Of a stretch of DNA of 13,159 bases, positions 1 through 13,159 are shown piece after piece. The notes below the pieces were generated by a model that ran no database searches, was not told the origin of the DNA, and saw nothing but the letters and a program-made list of their open reading frames with translations. Origin of the DNA: Clostridia bacterium (GTDB lineage Bacteria > Bacillota_A > Clostridia > Oscillospirales > Butyricicoccaceae); the NCBI GenBank assembly GCA_017421885.1, contig JAFOHJ010000124.1, forward strand, positions 1 through 13,159, in the 5' to 3' direction. The stretch's first letter is position 1. Each line of letters starts with the position of its first letter. The position numbers and the translations under genes were made by a program.

Positions 1-1299
1 GGACAGAAGTGGCTCAATCAGGCGGTTACCTATGCCTACTCTCCCGGTTCCACATTTAAGATCCTCACAGCCTCGATGGCACTTGAGGAAAATCTTGTTT
101 CTACATCCACCAGCTTCTATTGTCCCGGCTATAAGCAGGTCGAGGACTGGAATATCAGCTGCTGGAAGCCTGCAGGTCATGGCCCGGAAAACCTTGTTGA
201 GGCCATTATGAACTCCTGCAACCCTGCATTTATGGAGATCGGTTCGCTTGTCGGACGTCAGAACTTCTATAAATACTATAAGGCTTTTGGACTTAACGAA
301 AAGACCGGAATCGACCTTCCCGGCGAGGCCGTAGGCTCTTTCTGGGATATCGAAGAGATGAATGTAGTTGACCTTGCGGTTGCATCTTTCGGTCAGAACT
401 TCACCATCACGCCTCTTCAGCTCATCACGGCGGTTTCTGCCGTGGCAAACGGAGGTGATCTCGTCACGCCTCATCTTGTCGACAGGATCGTGGATGCCGA
501 CGGCAATACCATCGCGTCTTCTGAAACAAATGTTGTAAGACAGGTCATTTCCGAGGAGACATCCGAAGTCATGAGCGATATGCTTGAGCAGGTAGTTTCG
601 AAAGGTACCGGTAAGAATGCTTATGTTGCAGGCTACCGTGTAGCCGGCAAGACCGGTACCACCGAGAAGATTGCCGAACAGCTGGCAGAAGACAGAGATG
701 ACCTTCGTGTTTCTTCCTTTATCGCATACGCACCTGCCGATGATCCTCAGGTAGCCGTTCTCGTTCTGCTCGACGAGCCTACGGTATATCCCGTAACCGG
801 CGGTGTAACGGTTGCGCCCGTAATCAAGCGTATTCTTTCCGATGTTCTGCCCTACCTTGAGGTAGAGGCTGTTTATACAGAAGGCGAACAGCAGAAGATG
901 GATACCGTTGTGCCCAATATGGTCGGCATGAATGCCGAGCAGGCCAAGGCTGCCGCTCAGGCAGAAGGTCTTGCCGTCAGAACAGTAGGTTCGGGCGACA
1001 CAGTCACGGCGCAGGTGCCCTCTTATTCCGCAACGGTATCGCGCAACTCCACGGTTGTTCTTTATATGGGCAGCGAAGTCCCTGCCGACACGGTCACAGT
1101 TCCCGACCTCTCGAATCTGGGAGTGTGGGAAGTAAGGGTCCGTCTCAGCAATCTCGGACTTTATTATAAGAGCTCGGGCACCGAGTACGGCAGCGGCAAT
1201 CTGGTATGCCGCAAGCAGGATATCGTTGCAGGCACAGAGGTGCCGGTAGGCTCGGTAATTTCGGTCGAGTTCAGCGACCTAAATCAGATTTCTCAGTAA
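1..1299 (+). CDS. ftsI: Class B penicillin-binding protein (FtsI/SpoVD type) with two PASTA domains, 5' partial
   Basis: This is the C-terminal 432 residues of a septal peptidoglycan transpeptidase, which cross-links stem peptides outside the membrane. The frame is open from base 1, so the start, membrane anchor and N-terminal domain lie upstream. The three penicillin-binding motifs are visible: STFK at visible residues 17-20 (catalytic Ser17), SCN at 72-74 and KTGT at 217-220. Two PASTA domains follow, at about 303-358 (starts VVPNMVGM) and 366-425 (starts VTVPDLSN). The position immediately upstream of murE matches spoVD or pbpB of Firmicute dcw clusters. Two PASTA domains fit a PBP2x-like vegetative division enzyme as well as SpoVD, so the split between ftsI/pbpB and spoVD is not settled. 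The family is certain; the symbol is a choice. Confidence 0.93.
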   Translation, partial: GQKWLNQAVTYAYSPGSTFKILTASMALEENLVSTSTSFYCPGYKQVEDWNISCWKPAGHGPENLVEAIMNSCNPAFMEIGSLVGRQNFYKYYKAFGLNEKTGIDLPGEAVGSFWDIEEMNVVDLAVASFGQNFTITPLQLITAVSAVANGGDLVTPHLVDRIVDADGNTIASSETNVVRQVISEETSEVMSDMLEQVVSKGTGKNAYVAGYRVAGKTGTTEKIAEQLAEDRDDLRVSSFIAYAPADDPQVAVLVLLDEPTVYPVTGGVTVAPVIKRILSDVLPYLEVEAVYTEGEQQKMDTVVPNMVGMNAEQAKAAAQAEGLAVRTVGSGDTVTAQVPSYSATVSRNSTVVLYMGSEVPADTVTVPDLSNLGVWEVRVRLSNLGLYYKSSGTEYGSGNLVCRKQDIVAGTEVPVGSVISVEFSDLNQISQ

Positions 1300-1317
1300 A
1301 AGAAAGGATTCTCGGGT

Positions 1318-2760
1318 ATGAAACTTTCACAGCTTCTGTCGGTCCTCGATGTAGTCGAGATCCATGCCGACACGGAAACAGAGATCACATCGGTATGTTA
1401 TAATTCCCGTCTTGCCGAAGAAGGCAGCCTTTTCGTTGCTGTCAGAGGCTTTCAGACCGACGGACATAAATACATAAAGAGCGCCTTCGAAAAAGGCGCT
1501 GCGGCTGCGATCGTTGAGGAGGCACCTGCCGACTGTGATATTCCCTATGTTATTGTAAAGAACAGCCGCCGCGGCCTCGCACTTATTGCGGCTGAGTGGT
1601 TTGGTCATCCCGAAAAGAAGGTTCCTGTAATTGGTGTCACAGGCACCAACGGCAAAACAACAGTAACCAATTTGATTCGTGACATTGCGACAAAGAGCGG
1701 CATCAAATGCGGACTTGTCGGTACCAATGGCAACATGATCGGTGATGAGTTCATTCACACCGAGAGGACCACGCCCGAATCCTTTGAGCTTTTCAGGTTG
1801 TTTGCCCGTATGGTAGAAGAGGGCTGCGGCTGCATCATTATGGAGGTATCTTCCCATTCGCTGGTGCTTGACCGTGTATTCGGAATCGAATTTGAGGCGG
1901 CTGCTTTCACCAATCTGACCCAGGATCACCTGGATTTTCATGTCACAATGGACGAGTATGCAAGGGCCAAGGCTATGCTGTTCGACAGATGCCGCAAGGC
2001 AGTTATCAATGTTGATGCCGACTATGCCGACGTTATGCTGGGCGGCTCTTGTGAGAATAAAATGACATATTCCACAAAGGACAGCGGCGCATCGCTTTAT
2101 GCGCGCGATGTAAACCTCAGCCTCGGCGGAGTGGCATTCACACTTGAGTATGAAGGTTGCAGCATCCCCGTTTCGCTGGGTATCCCCGGTATGTTCTCGG
2201 TATATAATGCCCTGACAGCCATCGGCTGCTGCCTTTCGCTGGGCCTTAAGCTCGAAAACATCATTGCGCTGTTGGGCGAGGCTCACGGCGTAAAGGGCAG
2301 GGCACAGGTAGTGCCCACAGGCACGGACTATACCGTGCTGCTTGACTATGCACACACGCCTGACGGAGTGGAAAATATTCTCAAGGCAGCCAAGGGCTTT
2401 GCCAAGAGCAGAGTCATAGCTCTCTTCGGATGCGGAGGCGACCGCGACAGGACAAAGCGTCCCATTATGGGCAATATCGCAGGTAGCCTTGCCGATATGT
2501 GTATCGTTACAAGCGATAATCCCAGAAGCGAAGAGCCTATGGCCATTATCGAAGACATCCTTCCCGGTGTCGAGAAGACGGGCTGCAGCTATACCGTAAT
2601 TGAGGACCGCCGCGCAGCCATCCGCCACGCCCTTTCCATTGGTGAGGCCGGCGATGTCATCGTTCTAATGGGCAAGGGTCATGAGGACTATCAGGAGATC
2701 AAGGGCGTCAAGCATCACCTTGATGAGTATGAAGAAGTAATGGCTTATTTTAATAAGTAA
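1318..2760 (+). CDS. murE: UDP-N-acetylmuramoyl-tripeptide synthetase, meso-DAP-adding (MurE)
   Basis: Cytoplasmic Mur ligase that adds the third amino acid to UDP-MurNAc-L-Ala-D-Glu, using ATP. The 480-residue length is usual for MurE. An N-terminal UDP-binding domain (about 1-100) is followed by the ATP-binding loop GVTGTNGKTT at 106-115, the central ligase motif MEVSSHSL at 175-182 and Lys218 (YARAKAML), the expected carbamylated lysine. The C-terminal domain holds DYAHTPDG at 343-350 and DNPRSEEP at 400-407. DNPR is the established marker for meso-diaminopimelate, so the cell wall is predicted to be of DAP type rather than lysine type. The start follows AAAGGA at 1303-1308, 18 bases after the PBP stop, so the two are probably co-transcribed. 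murF, which often follows murE, is absent here. Confidence 0.96.
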   Translation: MKLSQLLSVLDVVEIHADTETEITSVCYNSRLAEEGSLFVAVRGFQTDGHKYIKSAFEKGAAAAIVEEAPADCDIPYVIVKNSRRGLALIAAEWFGHPEKKVPVIGVTGTNGKTTVTNLIRDIATKSGIKCGLVGTNGNMIGDEFIHTERTTPESFELFRLFARMVEEGCGCIIMEVSSHSLVLDRVFGIEFEAAAFTNLTQDHLDFHVTMDEYARAKAMLFDRCRKAVINVDADYADVMLGGSCENKMTYSTKDSGASLYARDVNLSLGGVAFTLEYEGCSIPVSLGIPGMFSVYNALTAIGCCLSLGLKLENIIALLGEAHGVKGRAQVVPTGTDYTVLLDYAHTPDGVENILKAAKGFAKSRVIALFGCGGDRDRTKRPIMGNIAGSLADMCIVTSDNPRSEEPMAIIEDILPGVEKTGCSYTVIEDRRAAIRHALSIGEAGDVIVLMGKGHEDYQEIKGVKHHLDEYEEVMAYFNK

Positions 2761-2771
2761 GAATGTAAACA

Positions 2772-2785
2772 GCGCCTTGAGGCGC
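2772..2785 (+). other. Short GCGCC/GGCGC hairpin between murE and mraY
   Basis: A perfect 5-bp stem with a TTGA loop lies in the 61-base murE-mraY gap. No T tract follows, so it is not a standard terminator. It could be an RNA processing or stability element, or chance. Confidence 0.3.
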
Positions 2786-2821
2786 ATAAAGAGAAAAGAT
2801 CCTTAACAGGGGGAAGTTGAA

Positions 2822-3802
2822 ATGAAATCAATAGCCTTTGGCGTAGTTACATCGCTTGTAATAGCACTTTTGATCGGCCCTTCGATCATCAAGGCTCTCA
2901 GGAAGATGAAGTTCGGACAGAAGATCCTTGAAGATGGCCCAACATGGCACATGAACAAGCAGAATACACCTACGATGGGCGGCATTATCTTTATTGCAGC
3001 CATCATCGTTCCCATAATCGTGCTGCTGCCTGCAATGGTAAGCATCGGCGATTACAGACCTGTGCTTATGCTGGCACTTTCGCTGGTTTTTGCCGCTATT
3101 GGTTTTGTCGACGATTATACGAAAATCAAAAAGAAGCAGAATAAGGGCCTTACTGCCAAGCAGAAGCTTCTGCTCCAGCTGGCAGCATCAGCGCTGTTCA
3201 TCACAGTCATGAGAACAATGGGATATCTCGAGCCTGAGATCTATCTTCCCTTTGTAAATATTACTCTTGAGCTGCCCTGGTGGCTCTACCTGGCATTCTC
3301 GGTGTTCGTCATCGTCGGATGCGACAATGCCGTTAATCTGACCGACGGTATCGACGGCCTCTGTGCTTCGGTAACCGCTGTTGTCGCAGTTTTCTTCTGC
3401 GGAGTGTTTGCTATCCTCGGCAGCAGCGCCCGCGTTTTCTCGGCAGCGCTGCTGGGTGGACTCATCGGCTTCCTCTATTTCAATAAATATCCTGCAAAGG
3501 TATTTATGGGCGACACCGGCTCTTTGTTCCTCGGTGGTGCCGTTTGTGCAATGGCTTATGCCTGCAATATGCCCGTAATACTGGTGCCTGTCGGCATCAT
3601 ATATATTGCCGAGACTCTTTCCGATATCATTCAGGTGCTTTATTTCAAGGCAACCCACGGAAAGAGGTTCTTTAAGATGGCTCCCATCCACCATCATTTT
3701 GAGATGTGCGGTTGGAGCGAGAAGAAGATCGTTGCTGTATTCACTGCAGTGACGGCTGTTATGTGTGTAATCAGCTACTGGGGCATTGCCGCTGCCCTCT
3801 AA
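2822..3802 (+). CDS. mraY: Phospho-N-acetylmuramoyl-pentapeptide-transferase (MraY)
   Basis: Integral membrane enzyme that transfers phospho-MurNAc-pentapeptide from UDP to undecaprenyl phosphate, making lipid I on the inner face of the membrane. It has 326 residues and about ten hydrophobic segments, as usual for the family. Visible motifs are GPTWHMNKQNTPTMGG (39-54), the acidic pair DD at 97-98 in FVDDYTK, NLTDGIDGL (172-180), MGDTGSLFLGG (229-239) and HHHFEMCGWSE (290-300). AGGGGGA at 2808-2814 is 7 bases before the ATG and supports this start. It follows murE directly, without murF, and precedes ftsW by 21 bases. MurG further downstream uses its product. Nothing in the sequence suggests loss of function. 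Confidence 0.97.
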   Translation: MKSIAFGVVTSLVIALLIGPSIIKALRKMKFGQKILEDGPTWHMNKQNTPTMGGIIFIAAIIVPIIVLLPAMVSIGDYRPVLMLALSLVFAAIGFVDDYTKIKKKQNKGLTAKQKLLLQLAASALFITVMRTMGYLEPEIYLPFVNITLELPWWLYLAFSVFVIVGCDNAVNLTDGIDGLCASVTAVVAVFFCGVFAILGSSARVFSAALLGGLIGFLYFNKYPAKVFMGDTGSLFLGGAVCAMAYACNMPVILVPVGIIYIAETLSDIIQVLYFKATHGKRFFKMAPIHHHFEMCGWSEKKIVAVFTAVTAVMCVISYWGIAAAL

Positions 3803-3819
3803 AAGCGCGGCGCGATTCT

Positions 3820-3824
3820 GGAGG
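3820..3824 (+). promoter_or_regulatory. GGAGG ribosome binding site that conflicts with the ftsW GTG start
   Basis: GGAGG ends on the first base of GTG 3824, so it cannot serve that codon at normal spacing. In frame, 8 bases after GGAGG, is ATA at 3833, an unusual start codon; ATC at 3842 is another. The next standard in-frame start is GTG 3956, inside the first membrane segment. Initiation may therefore use ATA/ATC, or may depend on coupling to mraY, which ends 21 bases upstream. Confidence 0.5.
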
Positions 3825-5020
3825 TGTCTGAAATAGCTTCTATCAATGAAAAAGAAAGGCGATACAGCCGTGAAATAAAAGAAAAAAAGCAGAAGCTTTC
3901 GGGCATCGATGAACCCTTTACCGTCCTTGTTCTTCTTCTGCTGCTCATAGGACTGGTGTGTCTCTATTCGGCCAGCTATGTAACAGCCTACAACGACGGC
4001 GAGTCTTCTACCTCCTATGTTGTAAGGCAGGGAATATTTGCCGCGGCCGGAGTTTTTGCGATGTTTGTAGTCGCGTTCGGACTTAAGGATTATCGCAAGC
4101 TTCATTATTTTGCATGGCCGCTTATGGCTTTCTCTATCCTACTCCTGGCCACTATCTTCATTCCCGGTCTGTGGGCCACCATCAACAAGGCTACAAGATG
4201 GATCAAGATCCCTGGAATAGGCACATTCCAGCCTTCCGAGATCTCGAAGTTTGCCTTCATCCTCTGTTTCTCCAGCTGGTCGACGATCATGGGAACAAAG
4301 AAGATGAAGAATCCCATTATAGGCTTTGGCCCCTTTATTATCTGCATGGGCTTCACAGCTCTGCTGCTTATGAAACAGCCCCATCTTTCAGCAACGGTCA
4401 CCATTGCAGCTATCGGTGCCGTTATCATCTATCTTGGTGGGGCCAATACATGGTGTTTTATCGGAGCGGGCGGCGGTGCGGTAGCCTTTGTATTGTGGTA
4501 TCTTAAAACGCATACATATGCCATGACCCGTATTAATGTATGGCTCGACCCCTTCATCGACTTCAGAGGAAGCGGATGGCAGGGAGCGCAGTCGCTCATC
4601 ACGATCGCCAGCGGCGGTGTGTGGGGGCTCGGACTGGGTCAGGGAAGGCAGAAGCATCTCTATCTGCCCGAGCCTGCCAACGACTTTATCTTTTCGGTTA
4701 TATGTGAAGAACTGGGATTCATCGGCGCTTTCATCATAATAATACTGTTCGCGGCCCTTGTTCTCAGAGGTTATTATATTGCCTCCAAAGCGCCCGACAG
4801 ATTCGGCACTCTGCTGGTGGCGGGAATCACCACTCAGATCGCCGTTCAGACCATATTTAACCTGGGCGTTGTCTCGGGACTTCTGCCTGTAACGGGCGCT
4901 TCGCTGCCCTTTTTCAGCTACGGCGGCACGTCGCTTATGATGCTGTTGGGCGAGATGGGCATCATCCTTGCCATATCAAGGCGAAGGAATCCCGATGAAA
5001 AAGAAAACAAAGATAAATAA
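3824..5020 (+). CDS. ftsW: SEDS-family peptidoglycan glycosyltransferase FtsW/SpoVE
   Basis: Multi-pass membrane enzyme that polymerises lipid II into glycan chains and works with a class B PBP, here probably the one encoded at the window start. The 398 residues begin with a charged cytoplasmic stretch (about 1-30, many Lys/Glu), followed by about ten membrane segments. The SEDS signature is clear: RWIKIPGIGTFQPSEISK at 125-142, GWQGAQSLITIASGG at 251-265, GLGLGQGRQKHLYLPE at 268-283, and NDFIFSVICEELGFIG, in which Asp287 is the residue expected to be catalytic. The C-terminal part includes GLLPVTGASLPFFSYGG. By context alone it could be the division enzyme FtsW or the sporulation paralogue SpoVE. 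The given start is GTG 3824; its ribosome binding site is wrongly spaced, so the true N-terminus may be 3-6 residues shorter. Confidence 0.94.
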   Translation: MSEIASINEKERRYSREIKEKKQKLSGIDEPFTVLVLLLLLIGLVCLYSASYVTAYNDGESSTSYVVRQGIFAAAGVFAMFVVAFGLKDYRKLHYFAWPLMAFSILLLATIFIPGLWATINKATRWIKIPGIGTFQPSEISKFAFILCFSSWSTIMGTKKMKNPIIGFGPFIICMGFTALLLMKQPHLSATVTIAAIGAVIIYLGGANTWCFIGAGGGAVAFVLWYLKTHTYAMTRINVWLDPFIDFRGSGWQGAQSLITIASGGVWGLGLGQGRQKHLYLPEPANDFIFSVICEELGFIGAFIIIILFAALVLRGYYIASKAPDRFGTLLVAGITTQIAVQTIFNLGVVSGLLPVTGASLPFFSYGGTSLMMLLGEMGIILAISRRRNPDEKENKDK

Positions 5021-5053
5021 ACAGGGTCTGTCAGACAAAGTGAGGTAAAGAAA

Positions 5054-6175
5054 ATGAAGGTTATTTTTGCAGGCGGCGGCACAGCCGGTCATGTCAATCC
5101 GGCTCTGGCAATTGCATCTTATATTAAAAAGAAGGATCCTTCGGCTCAAATTGCATTTTCAGGTGGCAAAGGCGGCATTGAAGAGCGTCTTGTAGCTCGT
5201 GAGGGTTATCCTATCTACACATTCCCACTCAGCGGACTTTCGCGCAGTTTAAGCCTCGGCGGTCTCAAGAAGAATGTTGGCGCGATCAAAAACACTTTTG
5301 CCGCCATTGCGGCAGCAAAGAAGATCATTCGTGAAAAGAAGCCTGATATTGTCATAGGAACCGGTGGCTATGCCTGCTTCCCCATGGTATATGCGGCCCA
5401 TGCCTGCGGCGTCAAGACGGCTATGCTGGAGGTCAATGCAACCCCCGGTGTTGCTCTCAAACAGCTTTCGAAGAAGGCTGACTGTGTCATGATCAGCTTT
5501 GAAGAAACAAGGAGTTTCTTTGAAGGTGCAAAGAAGGTAGTTTACACCGGCAGCCCTGTCAGAGGAGAGATCCTCGATGCGGCCGAACAGCCCAAAAAGT
5601 CTTTGTTCGATAATGGCAAGCCGACAGTTCTCTGTTTCTGGGGTTCGGTAGGCGCTCTTTACATGAACAAGAAGATGGAGGACTTTATCGCTCTTGTGAA
5701 TGAAGATAAGAGCTTCAATATCCTTCAGGCAGCGGGCAAGGCCAATTTCGAGTGGATGCCCCGTGAGCTCCAGGAAAAGGGCGTTGAGCTTGAGAATAAC
5801 GAGAACATCCGTCTTGAAGAGTACATCTATGATATGGCATCGGCCATGAACGGATGTGACCTTGTCATCTGCCGTGCCGGAGCCAGCACATTGGCTGAGG
5901 TCTGTGCCTGCGGCAAACCTTCTCTGATAGTTCCTTCGCCTTATGTTGCCGACAACCATCAGGAAAAGAATGCCCGTGCCCTTGAGAGAGCCGGTGCGGC
6001 AGTTGTTGCTCTTGAGAAGGAAGTCGACGGCAAGGTACTGTTTGAAATGGCAAAGAGCCTTATTGCTGACAGTGAAAAGCTTGAGGCAATGGGAACCAAT
6101 GCACGCAAGCTTGCTAATTTTGATGCTCTTGAAAGCATCTGGCAGGCCGTCTGCGATACTGTAAACGGAAAATAA
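5054..6175 (+). CDS. murG: UDP-GlcNAc:lipid I N-acetylglucosaminyltransferase (MurG)
   Basis: Peripheral membrane GT-B glycosyltransferase that adds GlcNAc to lipid I to give lipid II, acting directly after MraY. The 373-residue length is typical. The N-terminal loop GGGTAGHVNPALAIA (7-21) includes His13, which corresponds to the conserved His of GGTGGH in other MurG proteins. IGTGGYACFP (101-110) and the donor-binding AGASTLAEVCACGKPSLIVP (275-294) are present, followed by DNHQEKNA. Two positions differ from the textbook motifs: HEQN is LEVN at 125-128, and the GGS loop is WGSVGA at 196-201. These may be lineage variants, since the rest of the protein is intact. GTGAGG upstream at 5040-5045 supports the ATG. 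It lies 33 bases after ftsW. Confidence 0.95.
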   Translation: MKVIFAGGGTAGHVNPALAIASYIKKKDPSAQIAFSGGKGGIEERLVAREGYPIYTFPLSGLSRSLSLGGLKKNVGAIKNTFAAIAAAKKIIREKKPDIVIGTGGYACFPMVYAAHACGVKTAMLEVNATPGVALKQLSKKADCVMISFEETRSFFEGAKKVVYTGSPVRGEILDAAEQPKKSLFDNGKPTVLCFWGSVGALYMNKKMEDFIALVNEDKSFNILQAAGKANFEWMPRELQEKGVELENNENIRLEEYIYDMASAMNGCDLVICRAGASTLAEVCACGKPSLIVPSPYVADNHQEKNARALERAGAAVVALEKEVDGKVLFEMAKSLIADSEKLEAMGTNARKLANFDALESIWQAVCDTVNGK

Positions 6176-6186
6176 AATCACCACAG

Positions 6187-6236
6187 TCTTCTTTTCTGCA
6201 TAGAATGTCACAGCTATCTGTGTACAGAAAGGAAGA
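6187..6236 (+). promoter_or_regulatory. murA leader hairpin that can pair with the murA ribosome binding site
   Basis: TCTTCTTTTCTG (6187-6198) can pair with CAGAAAGGAAGA (6225-6236) over 12 bp with one G-U pair. The right arm contains the murA ribosome binding site GGAAG (6231-6235), 6 bases before the ATG. A second small hairpin, CACAG-CTAT-CTGTG (6209-6222), sits in the loop. The -10-like TAGAAT at 6201-6206 also lies in the loop; its possible -35 is poor. Folding of a murG-murA transcript should reduce murA initiation. The pairing is visible; the regulatory role is inferred. Confidence 0.5.
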
Positions 6237-6241
6237 ACAGC

Positions 6242-7492
6242 ATGAGTGTTTTGAAAATAATCGGAGGGCGCCACCTTGAGGGCACCATCAGAATAAACGG
6301 AGCCAAAAACAGTGTTCTGCCCATTCTGGCGGCAACACTGGTCAATGGCGGAATCAATGTTATAGATAACTGTCCCGACCTTCGCGATGTGGCCTCGGCC
6401 ATAAAGATACTCGAACATCTGGGGTGCAGGGTCACACGGGAGGAGAAAAGAGTTACGGTAGATTCCTCGTCGGTGTGCCGCTATGATGTGCCTGATGAGC
6501 TTATGCGCGAGATGCGCTCGTCGGTCATATTTCTGGGGCCTATAATTGCCCGTTGCGGCCGAGCGCTTCTGTATACTCCAGGAGGTTGCGAGCTTGGGCC
6601 GCGGCCCATCGACCTTCATCTTGATGCACTGTCGAGAATGGGGGTTGCTATTGAACGCGAGGGCGGCGCTATCAGCTGCCGCGCCGAGGCTATGAAGGGG
6701 CGGGACATAATCCTTGATTTCCCGAGCGTTGGAGCCACCGAGAATATAATGCTGGCTGCAACGGCCTGCAAAGGCTCGACAAGAATTATCAATGCGGCGC
6801 GTGAGCCGGAGATAACCGACCTTCAGCAGTTCCTAAGGAAGACGGGAGCTTCGGTCAGCGGTGCAGGCGGCAGCGAGATAGCTGTGATCGGAGGACGATG
6901 CAGCTTTGATACATATCACCGGATCATGCCCGACCGTATAGAGGCGGCTACATATCTTTGCGCGGCGGCCGCGGCAGGCGGTGACATAACACTTGATGAC
7001 TGCGAGCCAGAGCATTTCGGAACGGTCATCGAAAAGCTGAGTGACGGAGGGGCCGAGATATCGGTCAGAGGCCGTTCGGCTAGAATAAAAACCAAAAAGC
7101 GGATTGATGCCATGCCTTTTATAAGGACGATGCCCTATCCAGGTTTTCCCACCGATGCCCAGTCGCAGCTTCTTGCGGCGGCGTGTACAGCAAAGGGGAC
7201 AACGGTGTTTCTCGAAAGTATATTTGAGAACCGCTTCCGTTATGTGGGCGAGCTTCAGCGGATGGGTGCCGATATCACTCTCAGCGGCAGGATAGCCGTT
7301 GTGGAGGGCAAGAACAGGCTTCAAGGAGCTGCCATGAAGGCCACCGACCTGAGAGGCGGAGCAGCAATGGTCATAGCGGCTCTTGCTGCCGAAGGCACAA
7401 GCGAGATAGGCGATGTTCATCACATCGACCGCGGATATGAAAAAATAGAAGAGGTGCTCTCATCGGTGGGAGCGCAGATGATCAGAGAATAG
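6242..7492 (+). CDS. murA: UDP-N-acetylglucosamine 1-carboxyvinyltransferase (MurA)
   Basis: Cytoplasmic enzyme of the first committed step of peptidoglycan synthesis: it transfers enolpyruvate from PEP to UDP-GlcNAc and is the target of fosfomycin. The 416 residues form the usual two-lobed EPSP-synthase-like fold. Visible motifs are GAKNSVLPIL (20-29, with Lys22 and Asn23), the catalytic loop PGGCELGPRPIDLH (113-126) with Cys116, and YPGFPTDAQSQ (299-309) with the conserved Asp305. Cys116 is present rather than Asp, so fosfomycin sensitivity at the target is expected from family knowledge. It sits between murG and ftsQ, a placement common in clostridial dcw clusters in place of murB. Translation may be tuned by the leader hairpin just upstream. 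Compared with ftsZ it uses more ATA and GGG codons, in line with weaker codon bias. Confidence 0.96.
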   Translation: MSVLKIIGGRHLEGTIRINGAKNSVLPILAATLVNGGINVIDNCPDLRDVASAIKILEHLGCRVTREEKRVTVDSSSVCRYDVPDELMREMRSSVIFLGPIIARCGRALLYTPGGCELGPRPIDLHLDALSRMGVAIEREGGAISCRAEAMKGRDIILDFPSVGATENIMLAATACKGSTRIINAAREPEITDLQQFLRKTGASVSGAGGSEIAVIGGRCSFDTYHRIMPDRIEAATYLCAAAAAGGDITLDDCEPEHFGTVIEKLSDGGAEISVRGRSARIKTKKRIDAMPFIRTMPYPGFPTDAQSQLLAAACTAKGTTVFLESIFENRFRYVGELQRMGADITLSGRIAVVEGKNRLQGAAMKATDLRGGAAMVIAALAAEGTSEIGDVHHIDRGYEKIEEVLSSVGAQMIRE

Positions 7493-7516
7493 AAAACCAG
7501 AGAGAGGAGGCCGCCG

Positions 7517-8371
7517 ATGAAAAAAGTAAAACGCAGCAGAAAAAGGCGCAGACGCAGCTTTAACGCTGTCACCACCTGTGTATGCTTTGCTCTTGTGTTG
7601 GCGGCTCTCGTTTCGGCGGCCGTTATATTCTTCAAAATAGGTGAGATAAGGTTGGTCGGCGATAATCGATATTCCGATGATGCCATCATCGAGGTATCGG
7701 GTATCGAGATGGGTAAGAGTATGTTTCTCTTTAACAAGTTCGCTGCTCAGAACAGGATTTTTGCAGCCTGCCCTTATATTGATGAGATACAGATGAAGAG
7801 AACGCTGCCCGACAGGATCGATATTATCGTAACACCTTGTCAGCCTGTGGCTGTGATCCACAGCGACGGAGGCTATTTCACCCTAGATAGGGATGGTAAG
7901 GCAGATAAGCAGGTGGCTGCATCTGAGACATCCAAGCTTGATGCTGACGAGTTTGTATATTATGCTCCCGGCAGCTATGTTATCGATATCAAGGGCAAGA
8001 TCCTTGAGGTCGGAAGCGGCAGCGGAGAAGAGAAGTTGATAAGCATTTCTGGTGGAACTCTTATCGATCCTCAGGTAGGTAAAAGTGCAAAATTTTTTGA
8101 TAAAGAAAGCACAGATGCGCTGTTTTCTGTATTGATAACCGCAAAAAACAATGATATACTTAAGAATATAAGTGATATTGATGTTGCCAAAGTATATGAT
8201 ATCACTTTTGGTTATATGGAAAGATTTACTGTCAGGATCGGCTCGCATGACGATATCGAACGCAAGTTCAAGTTTGTTGATGCCGTTGTCGGTGCGTTAA
8301 GCCCCAATGAAAAGGGGACCATCGATGTATCTGATGGAAAAACCGGATATTTTAGTCAAATAAAACAATAA
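7517..8371 (+). CDS. ftsQ: Cell division protein FtsQ/DivIB
   Basis: Bitopic membrane protein of the divisome that links the FtsL/FtsB-type proteins to the septal synthase. The 284 residues start with a very basic cytoplasmic tail ([12 protein letters not shown], 2-13), then one membrane segment at about 16-39, then an external POTRA domain at about 41-108 ([19 protein letters not shown] through [14 protein letters not shown]), then the FtsQ/DivIB beta domain. GGAGG at 7506-7510 is 6 bases before the ATG. The gene begins 25 bases after murA and ends 35 bases before ftsZ. Its 3' part (8080-8220) is markedly more AT-rich than the rest and contains a good promoter. Primary sequence conservation in this family is low; identification rests on topology, POTRA pattern and the position before ftsZ. 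Confidence 0.9.
8132..8160 (+). promoter_or_regulatory. Predicted sigma-A promoter for ftsZ inside ftsQ
   Basis: TTGATA (8132-8137), a 17-base spacer and TATACT (8155-8160), the latter preceded by TGA to form an extended -10. Both hexamers match the consensus at 5 of 6 positions. The box lies in the AT-rich 3' part of ftsQ about 245 bases before the ftsZ ATG, so it would add ftsZ transcription independent of the upstream operon, as ftsZ promoters inside upstream division genes do in other bacteria. Confidence 0.6.
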
Positions 8372-8405
8372 ACAAGAAGTTGAAGAATATATTGGAGGAA
8401 GATTT

Positions 8406-9527
8406 ATGGGCTTTGTAATGGAAAGCGGACCCGAAAGCAGCGTGGTCATTAAGGTCATCGGCGTTGGCGGTGGCGGCGGCAATGCTGTTAACCGTATGGT
8501 TAATTCCAGCCTCAAAGGTGCAGAATTTATTGCAGTAAACACAGATACACAGGCTCTCAAGTTCTCGTCGGCTAATATTAAGCTGCAGATCGGTGAGAAG
8601 AAGACAGGCGGCAAGGGCGCAGGCTCGCAGCCCGAGATCGGCCGTGCTGCTGCAGACGAGAGCAAGGCAAAAATCGAAGAGCTGCTGGTAAATACCGATA
8701 TGGTATTCATCACAGCAGGCATGGGCGGCGGCACAGGCACAGGTGCAGCTCCCGTTATCGCTAAGATCGCCAAGGAAATGGGCATTCTTACAGTCGGCGT
8801 TGTCACACGTCCCTTCTCCTGGGAAGGCAAGAAGCGTATGGAGCATGCATCCGAGGGTATCGCTGCTCTTAAGGAGAGCGTAGATGCTCTGGTAGTTATC
8901 CCCAACGACCGTCTTAAGCTGGTCAGCGAGCAGAAGCTGACATTTGCAAATGCATTCGAGATCGCCGACAGCGTTCTGCTTAAGGGCGTTCAGAGCATCA
9001 GTGAGCTGATCACAGTCACCGGCTTCATTAACCTCGACTTTGCCGATGTTTCGACAGTCATGACCGATGCCGGTTATGCTCATATGGGCACAGGCCGCGC
9101 AAACGGCAAGGACAGAGCTCAGGATGCAGTCAACATGGCTATCAGAAGCCCCCTGCTCGAGACATCTATCGACGGTGCAAGAAGAGTTATTCTTAACTTC
9201 ACATGCTCCAATGATATCGAACTGGACGAGATCGAGAAGGCAGCTTCCATCATCCAGGAGGCAGCACATCCCGATGCACACATCATCGTTGGTGCTAATA
9301 TGGACGATTCTCTCGAGGACGAAGTACGCCTGAGCATCATTGCAACAGGCTTCGACAACGATCCCAAGGTAGCTCCCATCAAGAAGGAAGAGGCTCACGC
9401 AGTCAGCGAGAAGCCCTTTACCGAAGCTAAGGACAAGGTAGAGAACGAGGCAGCTGCTGAAGAAAAGGCTGTTAATGATTTTGACAGCAGCATCGATGCT
9501 CTTCTCAGCATTTTTGAAAAGAAATAA
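8406..9527 (+). CDS. ftsZ: Cell division GTPase FtsZ
   Basis: Tubulin homologue that forms the cytoplasmic Z ring. In 373 residues it has the nucleotide-binding loop [13 protein letters not shown] (19-31), NTDTQAL (45-51), the tubulin signature [13 protein letters not shown] (107-119), [11 protein letters not shown] (134-144), and the T7 synergy loop NLDFADV (209-215) with Asn209, Asp211 and Asp214. The C-terminal subdomain includes [12 protein letters not shown] (289-300). A linker of about 40 residues rich in Glu, Lys and Ala ends in [14 protein letters not shown]. That tail lacks the usual IPxFLR core of the conserved C-terminal peptide, and no ftsA lies nearby, so membrane anchoring may use a different partner. 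GGAGG at 8394-8398 is 7 bases before the ATG. The codon bias is strong, as expected for an abundant protein. A terminator follows. Confidence 0.98.
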
Positions 9528-9552
9528 GCTGAAGTTATTTAAATAAGAACAT

Positions 9553-9586
9553 ATCCGCCGTTTGCGTTAGCTGACGGCGGATTTTT
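9553..9586 (+). terminator. Rho-independent terminator after ftsZ
   Basis: ATCCGCCGT (9553-9561) pairs with ACGGCGGAT (9574-9582) over 9 bp, with GC pairs at the top of the loop and a run of T at 9582-9586. It ends the dcw transcript. The next gene starts only 24 bases further on, leaving no room for a promoter after it, so some read-through is likely. Confidence 0.82.
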
Positions 9587-9610
9587 CAAAACAGGAAGGG
9601 GGATTTTTAT

Positions 9611-11107
9611 ATGAGCAAACTTATGGAAAAGGGTCCAATGACCCGTAATATTGAAAAAGCTTTTTTGCTTGGCGATAAAGATATGCTTGCAAGCGGCGAG
9701 CGCCGTACCTTTGGACAGGTCCTGGAAGAGCTTCTTGAAAAGTGTTCTGCACGAAGGACGGACGGCTTTTCAAAGAAAAAGCTGATAGATGATCTGGCAG
9801 TAAGCCCCTTTAATGACGGCGAGACCAAGCGAAGCTCGGTTGAAAAGAAGATCTCGCGCTGGCTTAAGGACGAGGCCCGCCCTGAAGACAGGGCTCTGCT
9901 CTTCCAACTCTGCATCATTATGAAACTCACCGAGGAAGAGGCCAGATATCTCTTTGAAAGAGGACTTATGGCTTCGTGGATACATTGGGCCAACCGCAAC
10001 GAACTCATTTATGACTTCTGCCTGAAAATGGGATATGATATCGATAAGACCTACGAGCTTATCAACTCCGAAAACGGCATAAAAGGAGCCGGCGGCAGAG
10101 GTGCGTCCATGCGTATGTCGATCAGCGAACATTCGACAAAAATGATCGGAGCAGAGTACGGCAGACTGACCGACGATTGGGAGGACATGGACGAAGAGGA
10201 GAAAATAGAGTCGTTTAACGATTTCCTTCGTCAGAATGCCCACTACTTCAGAGCGGTGAGCAAAACTCGCCGTAACCGCTTCAGAAAGTTCTATGAAAAA
10301 TACGAACAGAAAAAGCGTACAGATCCCTCGAAAAGCACTTCTTCGGTAGATTATGATGCTCTCTATTACGAGGATATTATCGAAGAAGCAGCAGCGGCAC
10401 AGAAAAAGTTCGGCGATGTCTTCCTGGCAAATATCGATCCTGTTTCTGCCGACATTGTCAGAAGAGCAATGGATCTTGCTGTCAAGGGTGAAGAGGGCAT
10501 GGGTATACATAAGGGTTCGCTCAATTCCGACACCTGGAAACAGTATGTGGAAGACGCCATTGAAGCCGAGGCTTCGGCAAAGGGCGGAAACGGCAAGCTT
10601 AAGATAATTGAGATCGCTGATATCCTCAGGGTGATGCGCCTTCCCGATGCGGGTGATCTTAAAAGCCTTGAGGGCGGAGATGAAAACGCAAAAGCATATA
10701 AAGACAGCGTAAAGAGGATCAAAAAGATCATTTATGACGATAAGAGTGGAACCGATAATCCCATGAGGCACGATGTTTCGGATTATCTTAAGGGGAAAAA
10801 GGATGTTCCCCGTGATGTGCTGATCAAGATGTATATTCTTACCAATACTCCTGACATGAGCGGTGCCGGAGATGTCGACAATCAGGAGCTGGTAAATGAT
10901 ATGAAGTATGATCTTGAAAGTATGCTCATGGAATGCGGTTATCCCGGCATCTATGTCAGAGCAGCTGATGGATTTGATGCCGTTGTTTTCCAGACATTTT
11001 CGAGAATGATGGATCTGGACGAAGAAGATTATGATAACGGATATGAGATCACATACAAAAGAGCAGTAAATGAAGTCATTGATTATATGATCAGTTTTAT
11101 TGAATGA
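9611..11107 (+). CDS. Hypothetical protein with two helix-turn-helix-like modules
   Basis: I do not recognise a named family. The 498-residue protein has no signal peptide or membrane segment and is rich in charged helices, so it is probably cytoplasmic. Residues 76-150 (ISRWLK at 81-86, then a helix with FQLCIIMKL, then EEARYLFERGL and ELIYDFCLKMG) resemble an all-helical Xre/Cro-like module. Residues 386-466 look like a second copy (VSDYLKGKKDVPRDVLIKMY, then LESMLMECGYPGIY and FDAVVFQTFSRMM). Between them are a basic, Arg/Lys-rich stretch (216-237) and a long helical part. AGGAAGGGGGA at 9593-9603 supports the ATG. It sits between the ftsZ terminator and the kinase gene; base and codon use are like the neighbours. 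It could be a DNA-binding regulator, a kinase partner or an adaptor; the sequence does not decide. Confidence 0.85.
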   Translation: MSKLMEKGPMTRNIEKAFLLGDKDMLASGERRTFGQVLEELLEKCSARRTDGFSKKKLIDDLAVSPFNDGETKRSSVEKKISRWLKDEARPEDRALLFQLCIIMKLTEEEARYLFERGLMASWIHWANRNELIYDFCLKMGYDIDKTYELINSENGIKGAGGRGASMRMSISEHSTKMIGAEYGRLTDDWEDMDEEEKIESFNDFLRQNAHYFRAVSKTRRNRFRKFYEKYEQKKRTDPSKSTSSVDYDALYYEDIIEEAAAAQKKFGDVFLANIDPVSADIVRRAMDLAVKGEEGMGIHKGSLNSDTWKQYVEDAIEAEASAKGGNGKLKIIEIADILRVMRLPDAGDLKSLEGGDENAKAYKDSVKRIKKIIYDDKSGTDNPMRHDVSDYLKGKKDVPRDVLIKMYILTNTPDMSGAGDVDNQELVNDMKYDLESMLMECGYPGIYVRAADGFDAVVFQTFSRMMDLDEEDYDNGYEITYKRAVNEVIDYMISFIE

Positions 11108-11141
11108 TCGCAGGTTCCGACTTTAAAACTCCAAATAGATA

Positions 11142-11171
11142 TTGAGCAGCCTCCGTTCGGAAGTCTATAAT
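11142..11171 (+). promoter_or_regulatory. Predicted promoter upstream of the kinase
   Basis: TTGAGC (11142-11147), an 18-base spacer and a perfect TATAAT (11166-11171). Transcription would start near 11178, inside the inverted repeat loop, so this transcript would lack the left arm and leave the leader ribosome binding site free. The -35 matches at 4 of 6 positions. Confidence 0.55.
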
Positions 11172-11198
11172 ATGGACATGAAAAACGAACGGAGGCTG
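11147..11198 (+). repeat. Perfect 13-bp inverted repeat around promoter and ribosome binding site
   Basis: CAGCCTCCGTTCG (11147-11159) and CGAACGGAGGCTG (11186-11198) are exact reverse complements separated by 26 bases. The left arm lies between the -35 and -10 of the predicted promoter; the right arm contains GGAGG (11191-11195), the ribosome binding site of the short leader frame. No T tract follows, so it is not a terminator. It could act as RNA, hiding the site in transcripts read through from upstream, or as DNA, as an operator. Confidence 0.75.
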
Positions 11199-11202
11199 AT
11201 GA

Positions 11203-11262
11203 ATGTCCGGCATGGGGGATGATTCATCAGAAGCTCTTACCCGGGAGGGATCGCTTATATGA
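11203..11262 (+). CDS. Possible 19-residue leader peptide coupled to the kinase
   Basis: A 20-codon frame (MSGMGDDSSEALTREGSLI, then stop) starts 7 bases after GGAGG at 11191-11195. Its TGA overlaps the kinase ATG as ATGA (11259-11262), the classic arrangement for translational coupling. The peptide has no recognised motif. Its ribosome binding site lies in the inverted repeat, so its translation could be the step that is controlled. A second start at 11199 gives only 7 codons. At this length it could be chance. Confidence 0.4.
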   Translation: MSGMGDDSSEALTREGSLI

Positions 11263-13159
11263 GTGAAACAGACAAACTGAAATACAGACAGATAAGATAT
11301 GACGATTATATAGAAGAGTTCGACCAACTGACCAACAGGAGTATGGTCATCCAACTGGACCTGGCCGATCTGAAGACCCTTGTGGGCGAAGACGAGCTTG
11401 TTGAATGCTATGAGGGCCGAGGTACTCTGCAGCAGTGCATGGAAATGGTCAGGCAGTGCATCAGCAGCTCGACCGAAAGAATAATGATAATTGCCGAGGC
11501 ACTTACCCTTGAGTGTCTCAACCAGTTTTGTGAAAGGGTGTCGCGTCTTGCGGCGCCTGATGCGAATATTATAATGGGAGCGATGATACCCGAGGAATGG
11601 GACGGCCTGTGGGGAAAGGAAGACGACGGAAGCGAACATTTCGGCTTTCATATCGTAACTCCGGCTAAGCCGATCAGAATGGATAACCCTTTGCTTCTGG
11701 GCTTCAGCAGCGTTCTCAAAAGCTCAAAGAGCACATACACACAGCTGATCCCTTTTGCTGCAGGCGGAACCAGCATATGCTATAAGGCCGTTGATGCCGA
11801 TGGAAGCTCGGTGCTAATCAAAGAGGTATATCCCATCTCTATCGGACGTAAGCTTGTTCGCGACGGTGACAACCTGGTGCCGAAGTCGAGCAACGAGAAG
11901 GTTGCCGAGTCGGTCAAAACGCGTCTTATGATGGCGGTGCTCAAGGCCGAGAAGGAAAAGGAGCTTGAGCGCGACCTGCAGAATGATGGACGTGACTTTT
12001 TTGAAAAGAATGCCGATTATTTTCGTGCCAACAATACTTTCTATACTGTTTACAACGACTATGGCCACGGCACGATGGATTCGCTCAGCGGCAAGATAAC
12101 GCTTCGTGAGGCGGCTGTGCTTACCAAGAGGATTCTTGAGGCACTTGATAAGCTTCATGCATCAGATTACCTCCATCTCGACATTTCGCCCGAAAATATC
12201 CTTCTTGGCTCTGAGGTGGATGGTGTGCCTCAGGTCAAGTTTATCGATCTGGGCAGCCTTGTTCATCGAAAGATGATAAACCGAATGGAATCATTCCCGT
12301 CAAAGGACGGATATTCGCCCTTTGAGCTGTTCAGCGCTACCACCAGCGCAGAGGCCAGGGACCTTATTGCGCCTCACACCGACACCTTCTCGGTTGGTGC
12401 AGTATTCTATAATCTGCTGACCGGCAGATATGTCAACTGGGATGTATGCCGACGCGGAAATATGTCGATCATCAAGCCTGACGATGCCGGAATCGCCCTC
12501 AGCTACGGCAGTTGTGTAAGGGTAAAGCAGCAAGATCTTGATGAATATTATTATGAAGAAGATGAGTTCGGAGATATCGACGGGGACAGCGAATATCATG
12601 TCAGAAGGATCGTTAACGACCTGTATGTCGAAAGCAAAGAAGGCATGGTTTCGCCACGAATCCTCGAGGCTGTCAACGGTCTGATGGCGATCGCTATTTG
12701 CAACAATCCAAACAGAAGATTTCAGGATGCACACAGCATGATGAAGGCCATGGAAGGCCTTATTGCTGAGATCGATAAACATCAGTATTTTTTTGAGAAG
12801 GCCTCGATGCCTGCCGACTTTATGGAGCATTATATCAGCGGCGAAAGCGGCATGACCACTGAGACCACCATTCCTTTTGTTACAAAGAAGATCATGGATA
12901 AGCGCTATGAGCCGGAGGAGCTTCGACTGGCGCTTATGAAACATAAGGATATATTGCTTGAAGATGGCTCGCTGAGACATAATCGCGAGGATGTAAGAGA
13001 CTATATCGAGGCCTACAGAGATAAGTATCACGAGATCATTTTCTTTGATGAGGGCACTCAGGAGAGTCTGCTTTTCAGTGGAACCGTGGATACAGGTTAT
13101 TCTGATATAAAGCAGCTGGACTGTGACGAAAAGACTCTTATTGTATTCTACGGAAGAAA
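11259..13159 (+). CDS. FtsZ C-terminal-domain-like / protein kinase fusion, 3' partial
   Basis: The frame is open to the window end: 633 residues, no stop. Residues about 20-139 resemble the C-terminal half of FtsZ. IQLDLADLKT (31-40) matches the T7 loop [10 protein letters not shown] of the adjacent FtsZ, with both acidic residues kept (Asp34, Asp37); the Gly-Arg at 53-54 falls at identical spacing; LTLE (82-85) and PDANIIMGAMI (100-110) match the later strands. The GTP-binding half is absent. A kinase domain follows at about 160-505: AAGGTSICYK (167-176), Lys188 in VLIKE, the catalytic loop HLDISPENIL (306-315) with Asp308 and Asn313, DLG at 330-332, SPFE at 353-356, Asp375 and Arg486. All core residues for phosphotransfer appear present. 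An acidic insert (428-445) interrupts the C lobe. Residues past 510 form an unidentified extra region. The start follows GGGAGG at 11243-11248 and overlaps the leader frame. Soluble, cytoplasmic. Confidence 0.85.
   Translation, partial: MSETDKLKYRQIRYDDYIEEFDQLTNRSMVIQLDLADLKTLVGEDELVECYEGRGTLQQCMEMVRQCISSSTERIMIIAEALTLECLNQFCERVSRLAAPDANIIMGAMIPEEWDGLWGKEDDGSEHFGFHIVTPAKPIRMDNPLLLGFSSVLKSSKSTYTQLIPFAAGGTSICYKAVDADGSSVLIKEVYPISIGRKLVRDGDNLVPKSSNEKVAESVKTRLMMAVLKAEKEKELERDLQNDGRDFFEKNADYFRANNTFYTVYNDYGHGTMDSLSGKITLREAAVLTKRILEALDKLHASDYLHLDISPENILLGSEVDGVPQVKFIDLGSLVHRKMINRMESFPSKDGYSPFELFSATTSAEARDLIAPHTDTFSVGAVFYNLLTGRYVNWDVCRRGNMSIIKPDDAGIALSYGSCVRVKQQDLDEYYYEEDEFGDIDGDSEYHVRRIVNDLYVESKEGMVSPRILEAVNGLMAIAICNNPNRRFQDAHSMMKAMEGLIAEIDKHQYFFEKASMPADFMEHYISGESGMTTETTIPFVTKKIMDKRYEPEELRLALMKHKDILLEDGSLRHNREDVRDYIEAYRDKYHEIIFFDEGTQESLLFSGTVDTGYSDIKQLDCDEKTLIVFYGR

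Follow-up and report, generated by a model that had tools for sequence, protein, structure and literature searches.

The 13,159-nucleotide stretch of Clostridia bacterium DNA analyzed here (contig JAFOHJ010000124.1, positions 1 to 13,159; the window) encodes, downstream of ftsZ, a protein kinase with three recognizable parts: an N-terminal half of FtsZ, a kinase domain and, at the other end beyond a short intervening domain, the degenerate second half of a SEDS wall polymerase. The case is built from computed homologies, the predicted N-domain fold, the kinase motifs, purifying selection, the location after ftsZ and a constant partner gene. Taken as a whole, parts and role together, the protein probably acts in the division machinery as a membrane-bound Ser/Thr kinase that links the state of the Z-ring to septal synthesis.

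The open reading frame (ORF) begins with an ATG at 11259 and is still open at the window end at 13157, with 633 residues inside the window. An earlier note on this DNA had placed it at 11316..12773; the kinase ORF it described is real, but the frame starts further upstream and runs on further. The note was right about the FtsZ-like N-domain and the kinase, and missed the SEDS-like membrane half beyond the window. The full-length database protein, P0003, has 966 amino acids and differs from the window protein at 3 of 633 positions. The family comprises P0003-P0009 (n=7), the other six being 38-42% identical to the window protein, and in the protein search the E-value dropped after these seven from 4e-113 to 1e-12. 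A profile search for more full-length members added none beyond them. The features of the gene are as follows.

11259 to 13157, + strand: kinase ORF, residues 1-633 of 966 (ORF and protein comparison)
11316 to 11675, + strand: homologue of the FtsZ C-terminal (GTPase-activating) domain, residues 20-139 (profiles, hhalign, AlphaFold2 (AF2)/Foldseek)
11349 to 11369, + strand: T7-loop-like motif IQLDLAD, residues 31-37 (alignment); D34 and D37 match the two FtsZ catalytic Asp residues and Q32 replaces Asn
11508 to 11588, + strand: H10-S9 equivalent, residues 84-110, carrying the Pfam FtsZ_C match (Pfam, structure, alignment)
11745 to 12758, + strand: Ser/Thr protein kinase domain, about residues 163-500 (Pfam PF00069; K188, D308, N313 and D330 intact)
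12174 to 12197, + strand: catalytic loop HLDISPEN, residues 306-313 (sequence, orthologue alignment)
12876 to 13157, + strand: start of the middle alpha/beta region, residues 540-633 (prediction); the SEDS-like half, about residues 680-860, lies beyond the window

At profile level, the N-domain is a homologue of the FtsZ C-terminal domain. The best Pfam match of the isolated N-domain was FtsZ_C (PF12327; E 0.0019, 18.9 bits), under the curated cut-off of 27 bits, and this family was listed for only one of the seven members (E <= 10). For this reason profiles were built from the kinase N-domains alone, and such family-level tests are much stronger than the single-sequence Pfam match. At E <= 10, neither P0001 nor P0003 had a match to the Tubulin/FtsZ GTPase domain (PF00091). 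One profile, A2, contained six rows of kinase N-domains only, two of them 95% identical. Across 197 genomes of the order, it gave matches (E <= 10) in 82, the best at 2e-9, and the better ones mostly lay in frames as long as FtsZ and covered almost all of the domain. By our count 62 non-kinase matches reached E <= 0.001; the 30 that were checked were FtsZ (29 of 29 fetched non-kinase loci, and that of genome G003 itself), and the 32 that were not fetched include one in a 111-amino-acid frame.

The N-domain profiles were also run against a database of 3385 ORFs and their reversed copies. Its FtsZ set (38 ORFs, 36 distinct) is partly selected, 29 loci having been chosen by profile, and this applies less to the tests with 40 families and with PDB sequences given below. 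At E < 0.01 the all-member profile retrieved each of the 38 FtsZ ORFs and nothing from other families; 18 were found when P0003 was left out and 25 with P0004/7/8/9 only, while the smaller profiles of P0003 alone and of P0004/9 found 7 and 6. Compared by hhalign with the FtsZ C-domain, the profile of all members scored 94.4% (P 9e-8), P0004/7/8/9 88.7%, P0004/9 59.2%, all members but P0003 30.3%, and P0007/8 5.0%. When 40 families from the fetched DNA were compared by hhalign, FtsZ scored 92.8% besides the kinase itself, and the next family 0.9%; with the P0004/7/8/9 profile the values were 66.5% and 2.5%. Among PDB sequences, 45 of the 46 matches to the all-member profile at E <= 10 were FtsZ, the best at 2.8e-5, and a full-length kinase profile had matched an FtsZ unprompted in an earlier genome search. 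The earlier note had named a profile search as a check on its proposal, and FtsZ was returned in each form of it (A2 profile, ORF database, hhalign, 40 families, PDB).

The paired elements on which the note had relied were likewise recovered: LDLAD (residues 33-37) lies opposite LDFAD (FtsZ 210-214), PDANIIMGA lies opposite PDAHIIVGA, and the order of the elements is the same in kinase and FtsZ. The ungapped Gly-Arg spacing that it reported holds up to that pair (L33-R54 and L210-R231 both span 21), but a gap is needed after it, because the FtsZ loop to H9 is absent from the kinase.

The predicted fold of the N-domain (AF2) is that of the FtsZ C-terminal subdomain according to Foldseek, in which the best 50 rows were all FtsZ, at identities of 13-21%. 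The best 50 rows of the VIA structure table held TubZ and tubulin besides FtsZ. Structure prediction was the other check named in advance, and its outcome agrees with the proposal of the note. It could be argued that a common alpha/beta domain has come to resemble FtsZ by chance or convergence, given the marginal single-sequence matches, the low identity among the Foldseek rows listed, and the P0009-alone profile, for which a reversed decoy (E 0.038) outscored every FtsZ. This is scarcely credible, as the all-member profile singled out FtsZ among ORFs and decoys at E < 0.01, and again among the 40 families and in PDB, two leave-out profiles still found FtsZ in the absence of the window copy, and the best 50 Foldseek rows point nowhere else.

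The excerpt available of a study on S. aureus FtsZ (PMC8936486) describes T7 residues D210 and D213 as acting on the GTP of the neighboring subunit, and H10, S9, H8 and T7 as the longitudinal contacts of the C-terminal half. Kinase residues D34 and D37 correspond to D210 and D213, and Q32 to N208. The second of these Asp residues is kept in seven of seven members, while the first position is D in three, E in two and Q in two. Segment conservation was expressed as mean BLOSUM62 score against FtsZ, for P0003 and for P0004/7/8/9, respectively: T7/H8, 1.49 and 1.53; S9, 2.56 and 0.81; S10, 1.42 and 1.14; H10, 0.34 and 0.64; S7, 0.25 and -0.95; H9, -0.62 and -0.19; S8, 0.39 and 0.30. The contact regions T7/H8 and S9 are better conserved than most segments, and T7/H8 is the best conserved outside the window-type copy.

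The kinase domain matched PF00069 over residues 253-394 (E 9.2e-13; 48.6 bits, cut-off 31.7). Residues K188, D308 and D330 are invariant across the family, as in Hanks-type Ser/Thr kinases, and the motifs HLD (306-308), DLG (330-332) and SPFE (353-356), which the earlier note had read as intact, are present and invariant in seven of seven orthologues. No PASTA domain was matched by Pfam in P0003, and NCBIfam PknB_PASTA reached only 32.8 of 450 bits.

The C-terminus was examined because the full-length profile matched ORFs of about 280-490 amino acids at model positions about 650-820. A hidden Markov model search with a profile of residues 655-870 gave E-values down to 1.2e-15 on other ORFs. 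Pfam assigned SEDS to 12 of 12 tested ORFs matched by this profile, out of 14 distinct ORFs at E < 0.001 (L042 and L049 were left out). In hhalign against the 40 families, the kinase itself was followed by two SEDS families, at 98.2% (named after L095, the same ORF as L039) and 95.1% (named after L131 1729-3030, labelled FtsW of a division cluster), and the next family scored 0.8%. Single FtsW proteins match the profile poorly (E about 2 for L003). The membrane half has four to six hydrophobic segments and is not a complete SEDS protein of ten transmembrane (TM) segments; it aligns with what we take to be SEDS TM7, the large loop, TM8, TM9 and TM10. Not all members of the kinase family have the Asp of the YNTD motif (P0003 757-760). 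In the excerpt of PMC7614612, the membrane helix of FtsI is bound by TM8 and TM9 of FtsW.

Divergent SEDS proteins of about 450-480 amino acids were seen in L039, L041, L045 and L080; that of L039, the best non-kinase match of the membrane half, has a weak HAAS match in its N-terminal region. The middle region (540-660) was tried as a PASTA or FtsZ repeat and rejected (hhalign PASTA 0.2%, FtsZ C-domain 0.3%). Its low-confidence model (predicted local distance difference test score 54.3) had no Foldseek match at E <= 0.001.

The kinase gene belongs to a division and cell wall cluster in the order PASTA-bearing penicillin-binding protein (PBP), murE, mraY, ftsW, murG, murA, ftsQ, ftsZ, a 498-amino-acid gene and the kinase. 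The genes murE, mraY, murG, murA and ftsQ were named by eye and not by family search. The distance of 1.7 kb from ftsZ given previously agrees with the 1.73 kb found.

76 to 1299, + strand: transpeptidase PBP with PASTA, its start probably cut by the window edge (Pfam Transpeptidase 3e-59, PASTA 3.8e-20)
3824 to 5020, + strand: ftsW, the full-length SEDS protein of the cluster (Pfam PF01098, E 1.1e-89)
8406 to 9527, + strand: ftsZ, complete, 373 amino acids, the proposed docking partner (Pfam Tubulin 3.2e-50, FtsZ_C 4.9e-32)
9553 to 9582, + strand: terminator-like hairpin with a run of T, after ftsZ and before the partner gene (not flagged by the consensus scan)
9611 to 11107, + strand: partner gene, 498 amino acids, between ftsZ and the kinase (ORF, co-occurrence)
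11142 to 11198, + strand: promoter-like TTGAGC-18-TATAAT in an inverted repeat upstream of the kinase (consensus scan)

The carriers are a small group of uncultured gut Clostridia, two of those with a named source coming from goat gut samples. Of the 87 genomes searched in the family, 4 had the kinase at strong scores; in the genus it was 4 of 7. The partner gene is confined to the same four of 87. Searches across the order (197 genomes) and the class (391 genomes, E <= 1e-25) found the kinase in G001 only, at strong score, and in G003 only, respectively. The genes ftsZ, partner and kinase are consecutive in G001, G003 and G004 and keep the same order over two contigs in G002; the same fusion next to ftsZ, which the earlier note had proposed to look for in related genomes, is thus unbroken in three of them and split over two contigs in the fourth. 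Within the genus, ftsZ was found in six of seven genomes and not in G062, so that the missing kinase and partner pair there is uninformative. With residues 1-160 of P0003 as query, none of 218 candidates other than P0003 itself reached E <= 0.01; the search was insensitive, missing even P0004-P0009, and carries little weight on whether the N-domain occurs in other architectures. Eight plasmid records matched; the five matches listed were kinase-domain stretches only. In G001 (L001:1-3784) two kinase copies lie in tandem, the second with a frame break in the assembly and an intact relative, P0005. The N-domains of P0005/6, which represent this second copy, have no recognizable FtsZ similarity.

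Tandem ftsZ pairs occur in several genomes of the order (L104, L110, L111, L116/L135, with further double matches elsewhere) and are a possible source of the fused half. On that basis the N-domain might be a decaying, functionless relic of an ftsZ duplication read into the kinase gene. This idea is already disfavored by the selection test and is held to be extremely improbable: between the window and G001, residues 1-155 show 28 synonymous and 7 non-synonymous changes (ratio of non-synonymous to synonymous rates, dN/dS, 0.05), and complete kinase ORFs are present in P0003, L002, L003 and L004.

Other details of the locus are as follows. The PBP at 76..1299 is a possible partner of the SEDS-like half. 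The partner protein had no Pfam or NCBIfam match above cut-off, and a suspicion by eye that it is a helix-turn-helix protein could not be confirmed; it has conserved blocks MASW and YVRAxDGFDA and a middle whose length varies strongly among relatives. An inverted repeat follows ftsZ in the window, L096, L003 and L004. The repeat at 11142-11198 has perfect 13-bp arms, identical in L096, that enclose the promoter-like -10 box, and looks like a putative operator; it was found only in the window and in L096, a close relative, and not in L003 or L004. Promoter-like sites were weak as a class (four found, 2.9 expected). Rfam gave nothing at gathering thresholds. The murA gene is absent between murG and ftsQ in G061 and G002 (L128, L143) and present in the window, G004 and G063.

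A number of results, beginning with the Pfam listing for one member in seven, weigh against the division-machinery reading. The A2 profile had no match at E <= 10 in 115 of the 197 genomes, and the profiles of P0007/8, P0005/6, P0004 alone and P0009 alone found 0 of 38 FtsZ ORFs at E < 0.01; P0005/6 reached only 0.2% in hhalign against the FtsZ C-domain. When the search was reversed with a 32-sequence FtsZ C-domain profile, L096 (3.5e-4) and P0003 (0.004) were recovered and the others were not significant. The T7 Asn is replaced in seven of seven members (by Q, S or P), and in the excerpt of PMC8936486 the S. aureus FtsZ changes N208L, D210N and D213N all suppress assembly. The contact region H10 is modestly conserved and S10, not a listed contact, is well conserved. 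PF01098 was not listed for the kinases in the Pfam scan. Finally, the genus-mates G061 and G063 (ftsZ 70% identical) lack both kinase and partner, and other genes follow ftsZ there.

One interpretation of part of these data is that the FtsZ-like domain no longer meets FtsZ, and is a regulatory or dimerization domain of the kinase, of FtsZ descent, whose place has been kept by history. The lost T7 Asn fits this, as do the loss of the first Asp in P0005/6 (the second tandem copy), the barely FtsZ-like H9, S7 and S8, and the absence of recognizable homology of P0005/6 in hhalign. We consider it rather unlikely, however, since the second Asp is invariant, T7/H8 is the best conserved segment outside the window-type copy, and the kinase adjoins the ftsZ region in carrier genomes.

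The patchy presence of the kinase (four of seven genus genomes, against six for ftsZ), its constant partner gene and the fast divergence of the N-domain between species (21-28% identity, versus 70-72% for FtsZ) would also suit a guard, in which half-FtsZ and half-SEDS are integrated decoys for proteins with which phages or competitors attack FtsZ or FtsW, and the kinase senses these and arrests the cell by phosphorylation. FtsZ together with a phage protein is reported to activate a defense protein, according to the excerpt available of PMC13423816. The location in the division cluster and the strong purifying selection on the N-domain between close relatives argue in the other direction, and the NCBIfam defense kinase MAD6 reached only 31.1 of 460 bits (no PADLOC search was made); such a guard is distinctly improbable.

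Under the favored reading, a membrane kinase of the division machinery, we infer FtsZ docking, kinase activity and substrates from the sequence. The half-FtsZ would take the place of the next subunit by docking where an FtsZ subunit exposes its nucleotide face, either on free FtsZ-GTP or at the end of the filament with this face open. The excerpt of PMC8936486 argues for a polarity in which this end is not the growing one but the other. There the half-FtsZ may trigger GTP hydrolysis through its two T7 aspartates, while the half-SEDS, covering the TM7-loop-TM8/9/10 region, would position the kinase beside a PBP/SEDS synthase, and the kinase would phosphorylate division or wall proteins, or the partner protein. 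A bolder version, which we regard as doubtful, makes the protein a dummy subunit at both ends: the half-FtsZ would fire hydrolysis at the filament end, the half-SEDS would occupy the seat of FtsW beside the PBP, and the kinase would turn Z-ring turnover into phosphorylation of the septal synthase. If true, one polypeptide chain would bridge FtsZ treadmilling and wall synthesis, an arrangement for which we know of no example.

The case bears on the coupling between FtsZ treadmilling and septal synthesis and on the way in which division kinases are brought to their site. If the protein binds both FtsZ and SEDS partners, evolution has hard-wired the link. The N-domain would be a natural FtsZ GTPase-activating domain without the GTPase half, and a useful probe of filament ends. 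With one small clade only, the case would shed light on mechanism and not on general biology.

The PASTA kinases PrkC, StkP and PknB are Ser/Thr kinases of the membrane with links to division and wall synthesis. The window kinase differs from them in having no PASTA domain, several membrane segments and halves of division proteins at both ends, and a separate PASTA kinase is present in G003 (L035). Mycobacterial MviN joins a kinase fold to a wall-synthesis membrane protein, but it is a pseudokinase joined to MurJ, not SEDS, and has no FtsZ part. Compared with the FtsZ C-terminal (GTPase-activating) domain, the N-domain shares the predicted fold, the order of elements and, in the window copy, the T7 Asp-x-x-Asp; it differs in lacking a GTPase domain, in the replaced T7 Asn, in a shortened H9 loop and in its fusion to a kinase. 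Compared with the SEDS proteins FtsW, RodA and SpoVE, the second half (presumably TM7 to TM10) is detected by profile, whereas the first half is missing, the catalytic motifs are not conserved in the family, and the copy is kinase-fused. No closer precedent for a half-FtsZ kinase was found in open-access full text among the matches listed. Kinases fused to relatives of FtsZ do have a precedent: the excerpt of PMC2875224 describes four FtsZl1 proteins of planctomycetes with a kinase at the N-terminus; the same excerpt presents FtsZl1 as a separate FtsZ family whose C-terminal domain has no similarity to FtsZ. The statement in the earlier note that no FtsZ-domain kinase had been described is therefore too broad, although those proteins have the GTPase half and belong to another FtsZ family. 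Compared by description, both kinds of protein unite a protein kinase and an FtsZ-superfamily domain in one chain; in FtsZl1 the kinase is N-terminal, whereas here the FtsZ C-terminal half only lies N-terminal to the kinase, in a division cluster.
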